A stretch of 64,000 nt of DNA from Chloroflexota bacterium (GTDB lineage Bacteria; Chloroflexota; Dehalococcoidia; Bin125), in contig VXQZ01000041.1 in assembly GCA_009838735.1 (NCBI GenBank), forward strand, positions 1 through 64,000, in the 5' to 3' direction. The notes beneath the pieces were generated by a model. It was not told where the DNA came from and ran no database searches. It saw nothing but the letters and a program-made list of their open reading frames with translations. Positions within the stretch are counted from its first letter, which is position 1, and each line of letters begins with the position of its first letter. Shown piece after piece: positions 29,508-38,051 of this stretch. The position numbers and the translations under genes were made by a program.

Positions 29508-30308
29508 TCAGACGAACGCTTCCAGCAGCAGCACTTCGACGACTTGATTGAATTCGTCCGGCAGTTCCCAATAGACGCTGTGCCCGGCCTCGGGGACCTG
29601 GATGTACTGCGCGCCCGGCACCATCTGGGCGGCGCGCTCGATCAGTTCGGCCGGGATAATCGCGTCCTCCGCGCCGGCCAGGAAGATCGTCGGCATGGTC
29701 AGGGCTGACAGTTCGTCCTTCGACACCGCGCCGTCTGCCTGACTGAATGCCAGCGGCTGATTCGGATCGAGCGGCGGATTCAACCCCCGGATCTGGTTGT
29801 AGAGAAACACCCCGTTCGGCTCGCGCTCGAGGTAGGCCGGCCCAACCATTCGCGTCAAGCCGCCCTGGTCCTGGTTGACCTGTGCCGACTCGACCGCCTT
29901 GCGCATCTCCGCAACCAACTCGGGCGCGTCGATGCCAAGGAAGGTGTCGGCCATCAACAGTCCCTTGACCCGCTGCGGATTGCGCACCGCAAACGGCAGG
30001 ATCGTGAAGCCACCCATTGACTGACCAACCAGCACCGCCTCGGGAATCTCGAGCGCATCCATCAGTTCGCCGAGGTCGCGCGAGAACGCACGGCGACCTT
30101 CGCCAGAGTCGTCGCGGCTGCGTCCCCACCCGCGCACCTCGTAGGTCACGCAGCGATACCGGTCGCGGAACACGGGAATCTGCTGCCACCAGCTCAGATG
30201 ATTCCCCCCAGCGCCATGCACGAAGACGATCGTCTCCGGCCCCTCTCCGAACTCGTCATAGATCAACTCACCGCCGGTCACTTCCAGAGTTTGGGCCATT
30301 TCGCTCAC
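29508..30308 (-). CDS. Alpha/beta hydrolase
   Basis: 266 residues. Nucleophile elbow VGQSMGGFTILPF, oxyanion HGAGGNHLSWW, acid in FLAGAEDAIIPAE and catalytic His in VPEAGHSVYWELP. It resembles esterases and ring-cleavage product hydrolases of aromatic pathways; the substrate is unknown. It starts the minus-strand acyl-CoA cluster and is divergent from the first selenoprotein gene, 78 bp away, so the two share a control region. Confidence 0.9.
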   Translation of the reverse strand: MSEMAQTLEVTGGELIYDEFGEGPETIVFVHGAGGNHLSWWQQIPVFRDRYRCVTYEVRGWGRSRDDSGEGRRAFSRDLGELMDALEIPEAVLVGQSMGGFTILPFAVRNPQRVKGLLMADTFLGIDAPELVAEMRKAVESAQVNQDQGGLTRMVGPAYLEREPNGVFLYNQIRGLNPPLDPNQPLAFSQADGAVSKDELSALTMPTIFLAGAEDAIIPAELIERAAQMVPGAQYIQVPEAGHSVYWELPDEFNQVVEVLLLEAFV

Positions 30309-30386: not shown

Positions 30387-31445
30387 ATGGCCTTTGAATA
30401 CGCCGCCGTCGATTTGCCCATCCGAGAGCAGACGATCTCCTCCCAGCGAATGAGCTGGGAGATGATTGCCAATCCCGGCCGTTGGTGGACCGGCGCCGAG
30501 CGAGTTGAGATCGCGAGGATCGGACGCGCCGCACGCGATTTCGAAGCCGTCGGCAGCGAGATCCTGCCCGATGCCGCGGTCTACGCGATCCAGAAACTGG
30601 TTGTGGACAACGCCAACCTCAACCGCGAGTGGTACGAGGACATCATCGCGATGACCGGGATGACCGAGGATCGCTACGTCGAGCTGGTCGCGGTGGTCGT
30701 CCACTCGCTCTCGATCGACGAGTTCCATCGCGCTCTCGGCCTCGATCTCGAACCGCTGCCCGACCCTGTGGGTGGCGAACCCACGCGACAGCGACCCAAT
30801 CTGGCAGAACAGCGGTACTCCTGGCCGCCAATCGTGCCCAAGACAGGACTCAACCCGGGCGACGAGATGCTCTACGGCCCGTTGGAATGGGGCGCCAACG
30901 TCATTTCTGCGCTCTCTCTGGTTCCCGAGAACGTGCGCTGGCTGCACGACCTCTCCGAGGGTCACTACCTCTCCTTCGCCGAGATGCGCCAGCCTGATCC
31001 GCTGCGCGCAATCTCGCGCTCGCAAATCGAGCTGATCGCCGCGCGCGTGTCGGCGCTCAACGAGTGCTTCTATTGAACCGCCTCGCACGTGCGCATGCTC
31101 CGTGAGAGCAGCCAACGCAGCGGAACCCTCGACAGCCTGAACCTTCAGAGCACAGTCAATCCCGACGCCGACAGCGGTGTCCCGCAAGGCAGCCTGCTGA
31201 CCGCCTTCGCCGAGGCCGCCGTCCGTCAGACCGACGCCCTGCCCGGCCTACGCGAGCAGATCAAGTCGGAGCTCGGCGTCCAGGAACTGGTTGACGCCGC
31301 CGGCGTTGTGGCCAACTTCCAGCGCATGGTCCGTATCGCCGACGGCTGCGGCATCCCGCTCGACGAATTCACCAAAGACGCCACCGACGACGTTCGCGGT
31401 GAACTCGGCATCCATGAGTATGCCTCGGCCGCCAACACCGCCTGA
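30387..31445 (+). CDS. AhpD/carboxymuconolactone decarboxylase-like selenoprotein, copy A (Sec230)
   Basis: 352 residues when TGA at 31074-31076 is read as selenocysteine. AhpD-like proteins use a CxxC pair and a His (ECxxCxxxH) for peroxide or disulfide chemistry. Here the C-terminal domain reads ARVSALNECFY-U-TASH, so Glu226, Cys227, Sec230 and His234 fill the motif. After the TGA the same frame continues for 369 nt with normal coding sequence (VVANFQRMVRIADGCGIPL). The N-terminal half is a second AhpD-like unit without the cysteines. GAGAGG lies 7 nt before ATG 30387. A hairpin follows the TGA at SECIS distance. A nearly identical layout is repeated in copy B, 15 bp downstream. A broken gene is unlikely for this reason. 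Confidence 0.88.
31091..31118 (+). promoter_or_regulatory. Putative bacterial SECIS element, copy A
   Basis: TGCTC (31096-31100) pairs with GAGCA (31106-31110) around the loop CGTGA, and outer GCG (31091-31093) can pair with CGC (31116-31118) across an internal loop. The apical loop starts 24 nt after the TGA, inside the range known for bacterial SECIS elements, and has G as its second base. The element lies within the coding sequence, as is normal in bacteria for SelB binding. Confidence 0.7.
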
Positions 31446-31460
31446 TCCCCGGAGTCCACG

Positions 31461-32555
31461 ATGACAACCACCGCAGCGACCTTCTCGTACGCCGACACCT
31501 CGTGGCCCGTGCTTGAGCGGACGGCCGCGGCGCATCGTCGCAGTTGGCAGATGCTGGCCGCACCAGGTGAGTGGTGGACCGGCGCCGAGCGGATCAGCAT
31601 CGCCGCCGAGTGCCGCCGCGCATCCGCAATGGTTGACGGCCTCCCCGATCCCGGGGCCGGGCCAGCCACACTCCCCGAGGCCGCCGTTTACGCGATCCAC
31701 AAGCTGATTGGCGATCTGCCCAACGTCACCCGTGAGTGGTACGACGAGACGATCAGCGCCGAAGGCATGTCCGACGCGCACTACATCGAGCTGCTCGGCG
31801 TCGTCGTGCATGTCTGGTCGGTCGACGAGTTCCACCGAGCGTTGGAGATCGAACTGGAACCGCTCCCTGATCCCCTCCCGGGCGAACCGACGCAGATTCG
31901 TCCGACCGGGGCGAAGGCGCACGGCAGTTGGCCGCCGACGGTCTGGCCGGACGACCTGGATGAACGGGACGCGGACATCTACGGCGGCGCCGATCGCGCT
32001 GCCAACGTCCGCGCCGCGATGAGTCTGCATCCCGACAGCGTGCGCTGGCTCAGCGATCTGTTCGACGCGCACTATCTGAGCTGGATCGAGATCCAGGATG
32101 TGCAGGAGCCGTTCCGCGTGCTCACGCGGCCGCAACGCGAGCTGGTCGCCGCCCGCGTCTCGGCGCTCAACGAGTGCTTCTATTGAACGATCTCCCATGT
32201 GATGCTGCTCGGTCGGAGCAGTGATGGCAACGACGCGCTCAACCTCAACGGAACGGTGCGCAACGACATCGACAGCGGAGTCGAGCACGGAGACGTGCTG
32301 CTGCGCTACTCCGACGCCGCGGTCGGTCGCACCGATGATCTCGTCGCGGCGCGCGAAGCGCTGGACGCCGAAATGGGGCCCGACGCCGTTGTCGATTGCG
32401 CCGCAACAATCGCCAACTTCCAGAGGATGGTCCGAATCGCTGACGGTTGCGGCATTCCCCTGGATTCGTTCTCCAGAACAGAATCCGCGAAGTGGAGAGA
32501 CGGCCTCGGGATCGACAACTTCCGCAGCCGGGAGAACACGTTCAGTCGGTCCTGA
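31461..32555 (+). CDS. AhpD/carboxymuconolactone decarboxylase-like selenoprotein, copy B (Sec242)
   Basis: 364 residues with TGA at 32184-32186 read as selenocysteine. The C-terminal motif is ARVSALNECFY-U-TISH: Glu238, Cys239, Sec242, His246. Exactly 369 nt follow the TGA, the same as in copy A, and they encode the same conserved block (TIANFQRMVRIADGCGIPL). Other segments shared with copy A are VDEFHRALE, EWWTGAER and LPEAAVYAIHKL. GGAG precedes ATG 31461 by 6 nt. The N-terminal domain has lost its CxxC. Tandem duplication of a two-domain AhpD-like gene is the simplest origin. Catalysis through a Cys-Sec pair is inferred. Confidence 0.88.
32203..32223 (+). promoter_or_regulatory. Putative bacterial SECIS element, copy B
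   Basis: A perfect 6-bp stem CTGCTC/GAGCAG (32205-32210 with 32216-32221), extended by two G-U pairs, encloses the loop GGTCG. The loop starts 24 nt after the TGA, the same as in copy A, and its GGU resembles the apical loop of the Escherichia coli fdhF SECIS, which SelB contacts. Confidence 0.8.
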
Positions 32556-32636: not shown

Positions 32637-33125
32637 CTACCTGATCGTCGCCAGCAACCGGGCGATCTCGATCGCCGCCTGGGCCGCCTCTTCTCCCTTG
32701 TTGCCGGCCGAGCCGCCGGCCCTCGCCATCGCCAGGGCCACCGTCTGCGTCGCCAACACCTCGAAAATCACCGGCACGCCCGTGTCCAGCCCGACCCTCG
32801 CGATGCCCTGCGTCGCGCCGTCCACGACGAGTCGGTAGTGGTCCGTCTCGCCCAGAATCACAGCGCCCAGGCAGATCACGGCGTCGAATCGCCCGGTCTG
32901 GGCGCACTTCTGAGCGGCGATCGGGATTTCAAATGCGCCCGGGACCCAATAGATGTCAATCTCGTCGGTGTCGGCCCCGTTCTCCTCGAGGTGGTCGATG
33001 CAGCCGTCGAGCAACTTGCTCGTCACGAAATCGTTGAACTTGCTCACCACCACGGCAAAGCGCAGACCGCTGGCGGGCCCGTGTTCGGGGTCAGGATTCG
33101 CCGCGCCGTCGTGGACTCGTGGCAT
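32637..33125 (-). CDS. ribH: 6,7-dimethyl-8-ribityllumazine synthase
   Basis: Penultimate riboflavin step, 162 residues. Conserved segments: FAVVVSKFNDFVTSKLLDG, WVPGAFEIPIAAQ, AVICLGAVILGETDHY and TGVPVIFEVLATQT. The usual GETxHFD reads GETDHYR. It forms an icosahedral or pentameric enzyme in other species. Last of the minus-strand riboflavin genes, 17 bp after ribBA. The C-terminus converges on copy B of the selenoproteins with an 81-bp gap. Confidence 0.96.
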   Translation of the reverse strand: MPRVHDGAANPDPEHGPASGLRFAVVVSKFNDFVTSKLLDGCIDHLEENGADTDEIDIYWVPGAFEIPIAAQKCAQTGRFDAVICLGAVILGETDHYRLVVDGATQGIARVGLDTGVPVIFEVLATQTVALAMARAGGSAGNKGEEAAQAAIEIARLLATIR

Positions 33126-33142
33126 ATGGGTCTGCTCGCGGC

Positions 33143-34510
33143 CTAACCGATTGCCGCTCGGCGGGTGGGCGGGTGCCCGTCGTCGCCCGAATCGGCCGCC
33201 TCGATGTCGTCGCTGTCGAGCAGATGACCCATCTTCTCCTGTTTGACCGACAGGTAGCGAACGTTGTGCGGATTCGCCTGAGCGATCACCGGCACCCGCT
33301 CAACGATCTCCAGTCCGTAACCGGACAGACCGTGGCGCTTGGCGGGATTGTTGGTCATCAGTCGGATGCGATGCACACCCAGGTCGCGCAGGATCTGCAT
33401 GCCAATCCCATAGTCGCGCCGATCGGCTGCGAAGCCCAGCGCGAGGTTGGCCTCGACCGTGTCCATTCCCTGATCCTGCAAGGCATAGGCGGCGATCTTG
33501 TTGTGCAGCCCGATCCCGCGACCCTCCTGGGCCATGTACACGATCACCCCCCGACGCTCCTCGGCAACATGTCGCATCGCGATCTCAAGTTGTTCGCCGC
33601 AATCGCAGCGCTGCGACGAGAACACATCACCGGTCAGACATTGCGAGTGGACTCGAACCAGCGTGGGTTCACCACCACCGACGTTGCCCATGACCAGAGC
33701 AACGTGCTCCTCGGAGTGGTCGCGAGTGCGATAGCCGATCAGCTGCCAGGTGCCCATTGGCGTCGGCAGCTTCGCTTCCGAGACCCGGTCCACCAGCTGC
33801 TCGGTGCGCAGCCGGTACTGAATGATTTGCTCGACCGAAACGATCTTGATCTTGTGTCGACGCGAGAACCGCACCAACTCCGGCAGACGCGCCATGTCGC
33901 CATTGCGCTTCATGATCTCGCAGATCACGGCCCCCGGCTGGAGGCCAGCCAGGCGGCAGAGGTCAACGGACGCCTCGGTCTGACCGGCCCGGACCAGGAC
34001 GCCGCCTTCGCGGGCCCTGAGGGGGAACATGTGGCCCGGGCGCACCAGATCTTCCGGCGTGGAGTTCGGATCCATCAGCACTTGCACCGTGCGCGCGCGA
34101 TCGGGCGCCGAGATGCCGGTCGTCACTCCCGAGCGAGCCTCGACCGAGACGGTGAAGGCTGTTCCCAGCGGCGCAGTGTTTGAGCCCTGCTCAACCATCA
34201 GCCGCAAGTCGAGTCGGTCGAGCATCCCGCCGTCCATGGCCACGCAGATCAGGCCACGACCGTGCATCGCCATGAAGTTGATCGTGTCCGAGGTCACGAA
34301 CTGCGCGGGTAGCGCCAGGTCCCCTTCGTTCTCCCGATCCTCATCGTCCGTGATAATCAGCGGCTCGCCCTGGGCGAATGCCTCGATCGCTTCTTCGACA
34401 CTGCAAAACGGAGACTTGCGCCGCCGGCCGCCGGTCCGCCGGGCCGGACGCGGTTTTTTCACCTCAGTCCGGGTGGAGTTCGACGCGCCGCGAGCCTCGG
34501 AATCCGTCAT
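33143..34510 (-). CDS. ribBA: Bifunctional 3,4-dihydroxy-2-butanone 4-phosphate synthase / GTP cyclohydrolase II
   Basis: 455 residues. The N-terminal RibB domain has TDDEDRENEGDLALPAQF, RAREGGVLVRAGQTEASVDL and the EIM segment; the C-terminal RibA domain has RVHSQCLTGDVFSSQRCDCG, whose three Cys bind zinc, and YMAQEGRGIGLHNKI. Both catalytic halves look complete. A basic 30-residue N-terminal leader precedes RibB. The start overlaps the ribE stop as ATGA. Confidence 0.96.
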   Translation of the reverse strand: MTDSEARGASNSTRTEVKKPRPARRTGGRRRKSPFCSVEEAIEAFAQGEPLIITDDEDRENEGDLALPAQFVTSDTINFMAMHGRGLICVAMDGGMLDRLDLRLMVEQGSNTAPLGTAFTVSVEARSGVTTGISAPDRARTVQVLMDPNSTPEDLVRPGHMFPLRAREGGVLVRAGQTEASVDLCRLAGLQPGAVICEIMKRNGDMARLPELVRFSRRHKIKIVSVEQIIQYRLRTEQLVDRVSEAKLPTPMGTWQLIGYRTRDHSEEHVALVMGNVGGGEPTLVRVHSQCLTGDVFSSQRCDCGEQLEIAMRHVAEERRGVIVYMAQEGRGIGLHNKIAAYALQDQGMDTVEANLALGFAADRRDYGIGMQILRDLGVHRIRLMTNNPAKRHGLSGYGLEIVERVPVIAQANPHNVRYLSVKQEKMGHLLDSDDIEAADSGDDGHPPTRRAAIG

Positions 34511-35145
34511 TGCGCTCCGCCTCTGCTGATCTCTCGCGCCGCGAGCCGTTCGTCAAGGAGTTGATCGATCCTGGACTCCAGCAACTCGTCGACGTATCGC
34601 GCAAGGATGTCGGTCTCGAGGTTCACGGCATCACCAGGTCGTCGGTCGAGCAGATTGGTGTGCTGCTGAGTGTACTGAACGAGTGACACCGCAAAGCCGG
34701 ACTCATCCTTGTCAATGATCGTCAGCGACACGCCATCGATGCACACCGGACCCTTGACGATCATGTGCTGCAGCAGGTCGGCCGGCGCATCGTAGGTCAC
34801 GACGATCGCATCGGATTCGGGTCGCGTGTCCCTGAGCGAGCCCCGACCCTCCACCACGCCTCGCACCAGATGGCCGGACAAACGGTCCACCGGCCGCACG
34901 GAGCGCTCCAGGTTGACCCGATCGCCGACCTGTAGCTCGCCCAGGTTCGAACGCCGATAGGTCTCCGGCATCAGGTTGGCCAGGAACTGACTCGACTCGA
35001 TGTGCGTGACCGTCAAGTCAACCCCGTTGATCGCGATGCTGTCGCCCAGCTGCGCGTCCTCGAGGATCATCGGCGCGGAGATTCGCAGCAGGCCCTCGGC
35101 CGCTTCCGTGATCTCGCCGACCTCTTCGATGATGCCCGTGAACAT
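34507..35145 (-). CDS. ribE: Riboflavin synthase, alpha chain
   Basis: 212 residues, two internal lumazine-binding repeats. MFTGIIEEVGEI is the typical start; INGVDLTVTHIES and the second-repeat VCIDGVSLTIIDKDESGF follow. The catalytic site sits between repeats of a trimer. A common ICLTV/ACLTV-type segment lacks its Cys here (INGVDLTV). Overlap with ribBA by 4 nt; 135 bp separate it from ribD. Confidence 0.94.
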   Translation of the reverse strand: MFTGIIEEVGEITEAAEGLLRISAPMILEDAQLGDSIAINGVDLTVTHIESSQFLANLMPETYRRSNLGELQVGDRVNLERSVRPVDRLSGHLVRGVVEGRGSLRDTRPESDAIVVTYDAPADLLQHMIVKGPVCIDGVSLTIIDKDESGFAVSLVQYTQQHTNLLDRRPGDAVNLETDILARYVDELLESRIDQLLDERLAAREISRGGAQ

Positions 35146-35182
35146 CGCTCGCCCCCGAAATCTGGTCCGTCGGCGTCAATGC

Positions 35183-35200
35183 TAGCCCGGGACCGGGCTA
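35183..35200. repeat. Near-perfect palindrome between ribD and ribE
   Basis: TAGCCCGG and CCGGGCTA flank GA in the 135-bp gap between ribD and ribE. It could be a hairpin that attenuates transcription or an operator. The gap does not contain the conserved helices of an FMN riboswitch that I can recognise. Confidence 0.45.
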
Positions 35201-35280
35201 CATCGCGCATAACGCACGGCCAGAACGATCTCACGGCGATGACGAATGTTGACCGTTCGCGGCGAACAACCTGCGGTGGA

Positions 35281-36885
35281 CTATGCGTGCAGCCGCTTAA
35301 TCAACACATCAGAGCCGTCGGCGTCGCGGCGGTAATAGCGATAGCCCGACGACCTGTACTGTTCCTCGCTCAGTCCGATCGTGGTCGAGGTCGTCAATGT
35401 CAGCCACTGCGCGTCGCGCCCGCTGGCTGACGCCTCGCAGGAGTCCCGTAGTCGTTCAGCCACGCTTGCCGGAGCATCTGGCCGGACAGCCAGGCAGGGT
35501 ATTGAGGCCCGGTCGGTTGCGAACTTCACTGCGGCGACCCCAAGCACATCCTCGAACGGTTGCGCCTTGCCCTGCGCATCAGTCCGTGAGCCATGGCTGG
35601 TCGCGAGCCAGATCACAACGTCGCCGGCACGGGCCTCGGTCAGGAGTTCCTCGCATTTCGGCGGGCGCTCGATGATCTGCGAGGCCAGGAGCTGGTCCAC
35701 GGCATCGATATCCGCTTGACCAGCTGGTCGTATGCGGACATCCAGTTCACGCTCGGGATTGCCGGGATTGCCGGGATAGCCGGTCACGAGCAGGTCTGCG
35801 CCCAGACGTTCAACCGACATGTGGGTCAGACGCAACACATCGCGCATCCGCTCCGCCCCGCGTCCGCGCACGGCCGTCTGCGCGTCGCCGCCAATGATCA
35901 TCGGCGCTACGACCGCCGTCACCTTGTTGATCAACCGCTGGTCAAAGAACGAGCCCAGCACCTCGCCTCCGCCTTCGACAAGCAGGCTGACCACACCGTG
36001 TTCTCGGCCCAGCAGATCGAGCAATGCAGCCAACGACACGCGGCCGTTCTCGTCTGCGGGCAGCCTGGCCACATCGACCCTTCGTGACGCCAGGGCCTCG
36101 CTCCACTCCGCTGACGCTGCCGATGTCGTGGCGATCAGCGTGGGGGAGGACGAAGTGTCTTCGAGCACCCGGCTCTCGAGCGGCGTCCGGCCTCGACTGT
36201 CGAGGATCACTCGCAGCGGCTGTGGTACCGGCCCACTCCAGCCCTCGGGACGGGCAGTCAGCTGCGGATTGTCGACGATGATCGTCTCCACGCCCACCAG
36301 CATGGCGTCGAACAGCGGCCGGTTCTGGTGCGCCCAGCGCAGGGTCTGCGGTCCAGAGATCCACCGCGAGTCTCCGCTGGTCGACGCGATCCGGCCGTCC
36401 AGCGACGCCGCGAACTTGGCCGTCACAAAGGGCCGACCAGTCCTCCGGTGGTGGACATAGGCCTCGTAGTGAGCGGCCCCCTCAGCTGCTCCATCGCCGA
36501 GACTTACCTCGATCCCCGCCTCACGAAGTTGCTCCAGCCCCCGACCTGAGACCCTCAGATCCGGGTCGCCCACCGCCACCACCACGCGGGTGATTCCCGA
36601 CTCGATGATCGCCTCCGTGCAAGGCGGCGTGCGGCCGTAGTGATCGCACGGTTCAAGCGTGACGTACAACGTGGCGCCGTGGGCAAGATCTCCGGCCTGG
36701 CGCAGCGCCATGGCCTCCGCGTGCGCACCGCCTGGAGGCTGAGTCGCGCCCTCGCCCACGATTTGGGAACCTCGAGCAACGACCGCGCCGACCGCGGGAT
36801 TGGGGCTCGTCGTACCGCGCACGGCTCGGGCCAGCTCGAATGCCCGCGACATCAGGCGTGAGCTGCCGGCCGAGCGCGCGCTCAT
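35281..36885 (-). CDS. ribD: Riboflavin deaminase/reductase RibD with an extra C-terminal domain
   Basis: 534 residues against the usual 360-380. The N-terminal deaminase has GGAHAEAMAL and LEPCDHYGRTPPCTEAII, giving the zinc ligands His, Cys, Cys. The reductase has FVTAKFAASLDGRIAS, SRWISGPQTLRWAH and LLVEGGGEVLGSFF. After a GNPGNP linker near residue 400 comes about 130 residues (RIRPAGQADIDAVDQLLASQ to YYRRDADGSDVLIKRLHA) with the look of a GNAT-type acetyltransferase fold. I start at ATG 36885 because it overlaps the upstream gene stop as ATGA; the longer frame is shadow. Confidence 0.9.
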   Translation of the reverse strand: MSARSAGSSRLMSRAFELARAVRGTTSPNPAVGAVVARGSQIVGEGATQPPGGAHAEAMALRQAGDLAHGATLYVTLEPCDHYGRTPPCTEAIIESGITRVVVAVGDPDLRVSGRGLEQLREAGIEVSLGDGAAEGAAHYEAYVHHRRTGRPFVTAKFAASLDGRIASTSGDSRWISGPQTLRWAHQNRPLFDAMLVGVETIIVDNPQLTARPEGWSGPVPQPLRVILDSRGRTPLESRVLEDTSSSPTLIATTSAASAEWSEALASRRVDVARLPADENGRVSLAALLDLLGREHGVVSLLVEGGGEVLGSFFDQRLINKVTAVVAPMIIGGDAQTAVRGRGAERMRDVLRLTHMSVERLGADLLVTGYPGNPGNPERELDVRIRPAGQADIDAVDQLLASQIIERPPKCEELLTEARAGDVVIWLATSHGSRTDAQGKAQPFEDVLGVAAVKFATDRASIPCLAVRPDAPASVAERLRDSCEASASGRDAQWLTLTTSTTIGLSEEQYRSSGYRYYRRDADGSDVLIKRLHA

Positions 36886-38051
36886 GCTCGGCGGCGGCGG
36901 TCGGCAATCGTGAGCACCAGCCAGAACACCGCAGAACTGATCGCCACGGCGGCGAGCACAATCTGGACGGGCAACTCCCAAGATGGATCCCGGGCCAGCC
37001 GAACGGTCGACGAGCGAGGCCGTTGCTCAAGCGGCCAATCCGACTCTCCCTGTGCCACGGAGGTCGCCACCGAGCGAGTCTCCGTCCGGGCGCTGGCCGA
37101 GTGCTCATCCTCGGAGGAAGCTTCGGCCGGCGAGGCAGCAGCGCTCTGCTGCGCCTCGGGGCGTTGTTCATCCGTCGGATCCGCAGCCTGCTCTGCAGTA
37201 GCGTCCGCCGAGACCTCATCCGCCGATTGCGCCTGCTCAGCCGCTTCGGCCTCTTCTTGTTCGGCGACCACATCCTCGACGTTGACACTCTTGGCCTGGC
37301 CATCCCCGCTGCTTCGGCCCGCGGTCAGCGCACGGCGCGAGGGATCGACGGCCGAATCATCGGCCGACTCCTGCGCCTCCTGTTGTGCCTGTTCTTCCTG
37401 ATACGCCTCGGCCTGCTGTTCGGCCTCCTCTTGCTCGACCGCCGCTTGCGCCGCTTCTTGCTGCTCCGCCTGCTCCGAGGCCACCGCTGCGACCGCTGCT
37501 TGCTCCTCCACCTGCGCCTCCTGCGCGGGGGCGGAGACAGCCTCCCGCTCGCTCGCCGTCGGCGAGGCTGCTTCGTCGCTTGTCCCCCCGGCCTGAGCCT
37601 GCACTTCGACTTCGTCGGTCACGACCGCCGCTGTCGGGACACGCGTCGGCTCAGCGTCAGCCGACGTCGTCGTGAAGTTGACAGTGGGTGAATCAACTGC
37701 GTCGAACACCATGAACGCGGCGAACGTGGCGACGCCGATCGCCGCCGTGGACATCGACAGTCGCAATGCCCGCGCCGTTCCCGCTGGTCGTACCGACATC
37801 CGCGCCGGGTCGTCAAGCATCTCCGGAGTGAGCTGGAACGGTGTTGCGCTCTGCGCTGGTTCGAAGCGGCGCAAGACCGTTCGCATCTCCTCAAGATCGA
37901 TGAGGTAGTCCTGCATCTCCGCCGACTCGGCCAACCGCGCTTCGACGCGTGCGCGATCGCGCGGTGACAACTCATCGTCCAGGTAGGCCGAAACGTCGTC
38001 GCGCCAGTCGGCGCGTCGGAACGGCATCCATCGAGTCAGTCCCCACGTCAT
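36882..38051 (-). CDS. Anti-sigma factor-like membrane protein
   Basis: 389 residues. The N-terminal DDVSAYLDDELSPRDRARVE looks like the anti-sigma zinc-finger helix bundle, but the HxxxCxxC residues are missing. A first transmembrane segment lies near residues 100-120 (AIGVATFAAFMVF), a very long Glu/Gln/Ala/Ser-rich region follows, and a second hydrophobic helix ends the protein (VQIVLAAVAISSAVFWLVL). It lies downstream of an ECF sigma gene and upstream of ribD with ATGA overlap. Its role in holding the sigma factor is inferred from this layout. Confidence 0.75.
   Translation of the reverse strand: MTWGLTRWMPFRRADWRDDVSAYLDDELSPRDRARVEARLAESAEMQDYLIDLEEMRTVLRRFEPAQSATPFQLTPEMLDDPARMSVRPAGTARALRLSMSTAAIGVATFAAFMVFDAVDSPTVNFTTTSADAEPTRVPTAAVVTDEVEVQAQAGGTSDEAASPTASEREAVSAPAQEAQVEEQAAVAAVASEQAEQQEAAQAAVEQEEAEQQAEAYQEEQAQQEAQESADDSAVDPSRRALTAGRSSGDGQAKSVNVEDVVAEQEEAEAAEQAQSADEVSADATAEQAADPTDEQRPEAQQSAAASPAEASSEDEHSASARTETRSVATSVAQGESDWPLEQRPRSSTVRLARDPSWELPVQIVLAAVAISSAVFWLVLTIADRRRRA

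Follow-up and report, generated by a model that had tools for sequence, protein, structure and literature searches.

The selenoprotein family NF041238 corresponds, according to the relevant entry of a 2026 review, to 'hypothetical protein 1' of the Sargasso Sea (PMC13188914), which the 2005 paper, in its account of this protein, presented with four sequences, a CXXU motif (U being selenocysteine, Sec) and no assigned function (PMC1088965). Among proteins of the same fold, 2PRR, 6K40 and M. tuberculosis AhpD are single-unit cysteine enzymes, and for 2PRR the residues named in the passage on its active site are E74, C86, Y88, C89 and H93 (PMC4674687). Two AhpD units on one chain occur in Sestrins, whose N-terminal unit (N unit) is described there as active and whose C-terminal unit (C unit) as retired (PMC4674687), and in bacterial cysteine proteins with a cysteine-free N unit, treated in a section of a 2024 review (PMC11429811). 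Adjacent selenoprotein genes of other kinds, such as Prx-like 1 with AhpD-like 2, are among the examples given in a 2008 survey (PMC2398784). Here I describe two neighbouring genes, copy A and copy B, in a window of 64,000 nt (positions 1 to 64,000 of contig VXQZ01000041.1, forward strand) from an uncultured Chloroflexota bacterium. With a probability of about 0.82, they form a conserved NF041238 tandem in which an in-frame UGA is predicted to be read as selenocysteine, each gene likely coding for an AhpD-type redox enzyme of two units, the predicted first of which is without the CxxC motif found in wider relatives. The features of the locus are as follows.

30387 to 31445, plus strand: copy A, NF041238 two-unit AhpD-related gene, 352 residues, U230, 351.8 bits
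31074 to 31076, plus strand: in-frame TGA of copy A, predicted selenocysteine 230
31096 to 31110, plus strand: SECIS-like (selenocysteine insertion sequence) hairpin of copy A, UGCUC-CGUGA-GAGCA
31450 to 31454, plus strand: CGGAG, likely ribosome binding site of copy B, judged by position
31461 to 32555, plus strand: copy B, NF041238 two-unit AhpD-related gene, 364 residues, U242, 348.1 bits vs a cut-off of 175
31461 to 31955, plus strand: N-terminal AhpD-fold unit of copy B, residues 1-165, without the CxxC turn
31986 to 32510, plus strand: C-terminal AhpD unit of copy B, about residues 176-350, with E227, C239, Y241, U242 and H246
32184 to 32186, plus strand: in-frame TGA of copy B, predicted selenocysteine 242 (CxxU)
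32205 to 32221, plus strand: SECIS-like hairpin of copy B, CUGCUC-GGUCG-GAGCAG, apical loop 24 nt 3' of the UGA

Copy B opens with an ATG at 31461 and closes with a stop codon at 32553-32555, and the stop codon of copy A (31443-31445) leaves a gap of 15 nt between the genes. The TGA stands in the context N-E-C-F-Y-TGA-T-x-S-H in both copies (E-C-F-Y-TGA-T-I-S-H in copy B), and 369 nt follow it in copy A as in copy B (32187-32555 in the latter, stop codon included), at a protein identity of ~51% between the two. The original prediction had given the same TGA position in copy B, gap, tail length and common motif, and all of them were recovered when re-read from the sequence. Both copies score about twice the curated cut-off of 175 bits for NF041238 (AhpD_rel_CFYUT) and have its C-F-Y-U-T active site with a TGA-encoded U. 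The family is labelled 'alkylhydroperoxidase-related (seleno)protein', its name spelling the motif. PF02627 (AhpD / CMD) matches at 23.9 (B) and 29.9 (A), above the gathering cut-off of 23, while the peroxidase-related enzyme model TIGR01926 stays below its cut-off of 81.8 (29.4 in B, 35.3 in A). Across a phylum sample of 400 genomes, NF041238 was found in 4 at E <=1e-30, all of them from this genus and the window's own included.

The family was sought in 61 genomes, namely the window's own (56 contigs, 96.6% complete) and 60 relatives. The window's genome encodes a tRNA-Sec whose anticodon is tca (68.2 bits vs 47), matches SelA at 523.6 bits and SelB at 330.3 bits, and has a selD gene (L044, G000:C46:120633-121574) that itself contains an in-frame TGA. 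NF041238 exceeded the family cut-off in 14 of the 61 genomes, and the 28 copies taken from these all show TGA at the selenocysteine codon (28/28), followed by 118-127 open codons, with no broken frame (0/28). The ratio of nonsynonymous to synonymous substitution rates (dN/dS, NG86) was computed for 13 A and 13 B copies of the genus, as 78 non-independent pairs each; G017, a genome of another genus, was excluded here and from the codon-constraint tests below. Median dN/dS was 0.134 upstream and 0.147 downstream of the TGA in copy A, and 0.153 and 0.207 in copy B, so that the region of B after the TGA, despite its slightly higher dN/dS, is still strongly constrained. The two checks proposed with the original prediction, for relaxed selection and for frame breaks behind the TGA, thus revealed neither, and its proposal of a selenoprotein with a functional downstream part is supported by the Sec machinery, the TGA in every copy and purifying selection on either side. 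A chance nonsense mutation or sequencing error was rejected on the grounds of the TGA and open frame in 28/28 copies and the low dN/dS behind the TGA.

At the matching place in both copies a UGCUC-(5 nt)-GAGCA stem-loop is possible, its loop lying 24 nt after the UGA. The loops CGUGA (A) and GGUCG (B), with G in second position, and the 24-nt spacing agree with the published constraints on bacterial SECIS elements in these points, and loop positions 2-3 read G-U in 30/30 sequences, including the outgroup genes L078 and L077. Folding over a 30-nt piece gave -9.1 (A) and -12.8 kcal/mol (B), with a mean folding-energy z of -1.42 across the 28 copies. The 13 A copies had zero synonymous change at five degenerate codons of invariant residues from +8 to +12 (mean codon entropy 0 vs 0.88 elsewhere; 0/20,000 matched draws were this low), and the two usable codons of this stretch in the 13 B copies were also without synonymous change (13/20,000 draws this low). 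The evidence for the hairpin is codon constraint rather than folding energy.

The predicted model places two AhpD units on one chain, packed in the Sestrin arrangement as in human Sestrin2. Within the C unit, helices 223-236 and 240-253 are retained in the model with CxxU in between; the exchange of this helix-turn-helix for an electronegative DDYDY hinge, as Sestrins are characterised in the review's passage on them (PMC11429811), was not found. The roles of the units are reversed between the two systems: in Sestrins the GATOR2-binding hinge belongs to the retired C unit, whereas in the window proteins it is the N unit that is retired, with selenocysteine located in the C unit. The resemblance to Sestrins is one of predicted arrangement; a Pfam scan of 48 members listed no Sestrin model, an absence that excludes nothing. 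The C unit is alike in fold to 2PRR, 6K40 and M. tuberculosis AhpD, and its E(-12), C, Y(+2), U(+3) and H(+7), present in 28/28 copies and in two Sec outgroups, have the catalytic spacing of 2PRR, but those enzymes consist of a single unit, and in the window proteins selenocysteine replaces the second cysteine. The single genes L077 and L078 also encode two units, and the two-unit chain is therefore the architecture of the family and not a product of the tandem.

The original prediction held that the N-terminal AhpD unit had lost its cysteines, which is supported by a CxxC at this place in outgroups and by a fold search of the N unit alone, while two-unit cysteine proteins provide a precedent for the arrangement. 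Relatives were drawn from searches with copy B (best 120 of 253) and L078 (best 120 of 581), and CxxC was counted as any C-x-x-C in the first 110 residues, or by the stricter pattern C-x-x-C-x-x-[RK]. It is present in 119/120 of the L078 relatives (117/120 by the stricter pattern); P0197 reads C-E-L-F, and P0136 and P0170 have C at the last place of the stricter pattern. Among the nearest copy-B relatives, CxxC was found in 17 of the 119 counted and absent from 102, and the window copies lack ~10 residues at this turn in the alignment. G017_B keeps CALC and G017_A is without it. On a tree of the N half (without P0001, P0002, P0125, P0039 and P0108, and with the CxxC columns excluded), the two CxxC states require at least two changes; because a lost motif is unlikely to return in identical form, repeated loss would be the better reading of the sequences. 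A separate observation concerns the wider relatives (P0126-P0245, the best 120 of 581), most of which have C-V-Y, not C-F-Y, as the last residues ahead of the stop.

Some B genes may have received the CxxC-free state from A. Before residue 50, P0065 and P0072 are B-type at 5/5 and 4/5 diagnostic columns (one unclear); inside the segment they are A-type at 10/10, 7 of these being columns of the one missing turn, and behind it B-type at 22/22. Over residues 51-75, P0065 matches an A-type protein at 24/24 positions and a B-type one at 11/25. From this switch of diagnostic columns, P0065 and P0072 likely owe their CxxC-free segment to a copy of A sequence placed into a B gene, and P0053 and P0070 are a weaker case. 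No raised A-B identity in the N unit was found in the window's own genus. The last 120-nt window of the A-vs-B comparison is 85% identical in G007 (L051) and 94% in G008 (L052), with other windows at 45-74%, and the 3' end of B in these genomes looks as if copied from A. A more far-reaching scheme, in which the pair is a selenium mirror image of Sestrin, with the first unit retired to sense or bind, the second working on selenocysteine, and the tandem passing on the retired state by gene conversion and forming a hetero-oligomer, is unlikely.

Tandem counts refer to 15 genomes of the genus, the window's own included. The search for tandem AhpD-U genes in related assemblies, proposed with the original prediction, returned A and B adjacent in 11/15 (gap 13-54 nt) and also in G017 (gap 25 nt). 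The A and the B copies of the genus are resolved as two distinct groups in the full-length tree (100/100, 100/99), and G017_A falls with A at weak support (94/63), for which reason the duplication likely predates the genera. A further hint comes from P0002-P0106, 105 of the best 120 of 253 copy-B relatives, in which 9 protein pairs share one longest-contig size and 8/9 combine a B-type with an A-type protein, hinting at further tandem contigs. A and B lie on separate contigs in G014, and G009 has an additional B elsewhere; these displaced B genes (L059 and L054) group in the tree (98/93), and blastn detected no shared flanking DNA around them. Transfer by plasmids was considered and dropped, as copy B had no tblastn match among 72,556 plasmid records. 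A genome from a different family of the class has two neighbouring, weaker matches to NF041238 that contain TGA and stay below the cut-off (G024:C124:3081-4189; L025, L064), perhaps another AhpD-type selenoprotein tandem.

The surroundings of the pair are partly conserved. An enoyl-CoA-hydratase gene lies upstream in the opposite direction in 10/10 other adjacent-pair loci of the genus, and ribH lies downstream and convergent in 9/10, the G007 contig ending before it; next to the G017 pair ribH was not seen. In the window, the riboflavin genes ribH, ribBA, ribE and ribD (32637-36981) are convergent with copy B. Upstream of A and divergent from it is an alpha/beta hydrolase gene (29508-30308), with a similar gene at that place in 5/10 of the other adjacent-pair loci; its best NCBIfam matches are PcaD and PcaD-PcaC fusions, far below the cut-off. 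PcaC has the CMD/AhpD fold.

A number of results weigh against the proposed tandem of two-unit selenoproteins. Profile likeness between the N and C units is low (probability 4.3%, P 0.0096; computed without P0001, P0002, P0125, P0039, P0108, P0197, P0198 and P0214), too weak for a sequence proof of the units as repeats, and the two-unit reading rests on the predicted structure because the profiles are hardly similar. The best Foldseek E-values are themselves weak (0.009 and 0.12), and some AhpD-type chains fit the N unit poorly (2ouw 3.6, 1vke 2.3). Covariation had to be discarded as proof of the hairpin, as its score was equalled by 87/500 shuffles and the number of pairs changed on both sides by 427/500. 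G006_B and G011_B have a single C-A mismatch within the stem, and the 60-nt minimum-energy folds of G004_B and G007_B pair otherwise; against synonymous recodings, stability is ordinary in copy A (547/2000 as low) and modest in copy B (95/2000). As for the pair itself, G005 (L049) has only A, with B missing and ribH directly behind A, while G002 and G003 have no copy above the family cut-off (a fragment only in G003). G002 is not a clean loss of the pair: tRNA-Sec is present, but since ribH has no match and the best enoyl-CoA-hydratase match is only 37% identical, the whole block is missing or unassembled. In G003, which is in 470 contigs, ribH is likewise without a match, and enoyl-CoA-hydratase is matched in part, at 86%, where a contig ends. 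Finally, the full-length relative P0107, whose N unit contains CxxC, reads C-F-Y-R with Arg at the Sec position, possibly through decay, error or altered function.

If the TGA were a true stop, copy B would yield a product of 241 residues and the downstream frame would be a remnant or a separate small gene starting at GTG 32199, where a mechanical open reading frame of 118 aa indeed begins. Gene finders do stop at the TGA, P0107 being the only full-length protein among the best 120 of 253 relatives. Yet the frame behind the TGA is kept in 28/28 copies with low dN/dS in both paralogs, the family profile crosses the TGA with conserved residues on either side, and the codon occupies the place of an AhpD redox residue whose set is completed behind it by the His at +7, all of which makes termination highly improbable. 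Genome-wide reassignment of TGA to another amino acid has a negligible chance and was discarded, as A and B both use TGA as their terminator as well and the genome has a tRNA-Sec with anticodon tca.

With the UGA taken as selenocysteine, the alternatives concern what the enzyme does. A and B would likely function as AhpD-type peroxide or thiol redox enzymes. The same fold could also serve a non-peroxidase, either a thiol-disulfide or a ligand-dehalogenating enzyme, with the paralogs acting on different substrates; this is rather unlikely, as the E-C-Y-U-H set corresponds to that of AhpD-type hydroperoxidases and the five best PDB sequence matches are named AhpD, peroxidase-related or antioxidant-defence proteins.

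For an AhpD-type selenoenzyme, the following course can be proposed. The hairpin directly 3' of the UGA would recruit SelB, and U242 would attack with its selenol either a hydroperoxide or a thiol partner in oxidised form; the selenenic acid would then be resolved by C239 as a Se-S bond, with E227, Y241 and H246 relaying protons and a cellular dithiol donor as the candidate reductant of this bond. The retired N unit would likely serve as a scaffold or binding surface. In evolutionary terms, an old duplication may have given rise to A and B. The CxxC turn would have disappeared from A and, in separate events, from B lineages, at least one of which would have lost it when an A segment was copied over that of B.

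As a selenoprotein, this type was known before, since the family was already named for its motif and reported in 2005. The window copies share family, CxxU motif and length with NF041238, but differ from its wider relatives, nearly all with CxxC in the N unit, in lacking this motif and in being arranged in tandem. The cysteine proteins of Corynebacterium ureicelerivorans and Comamonas aquatica are similar in having a cysteine-free N unit and a C unit with the active pair, but the section of the review on them mentions neither selenocysteine nor a tandem pair (PMC11429811), and a term search of its text did not find 'selenocysteine'. Searches of an open-access library, with subscription papers outside its coverage, yielded no NF041238 selenoprotein described as tandem or as Sestrin-like, no Sec protein of two-unit AhpD shape with a cysteine-free first unit, no use of the phrase 'AhpD-like selenoproteins with two AhpD domains' and no title on gene conversion in bacterial selenoproteins; a search there for tandem selenoprotein genes also returned none. 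The suggestion that the two-domain arrangement may be undescribed consequently fails for the family and for two-unit cysteine proteins, and stands, within these searches, for the Sec and tandem form. The novelty lies in a predicted plan resembling that of Sestrins, in the retirement of the first unit and in the likely exchange of sequence between tandem copies.

Database proteins of both genes end at the UGA and so lose the catalytic residue, for which reason annotation of these genomes likely misses this type of enzyme. If the proposed interpretation is true, a bacterial system has arrived at a Sestrin-type division of labour, with one AhpD unit active and one retired, in which the units are swapped and selenocysteine is used. 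Intermediates would then survive: redox pairs in both units in L078, CxxC in just one of the two paralogs in G017, and CxxC in neither paralog in the window, and the role of a retained, retired AhpD unit would become testable by comparison.
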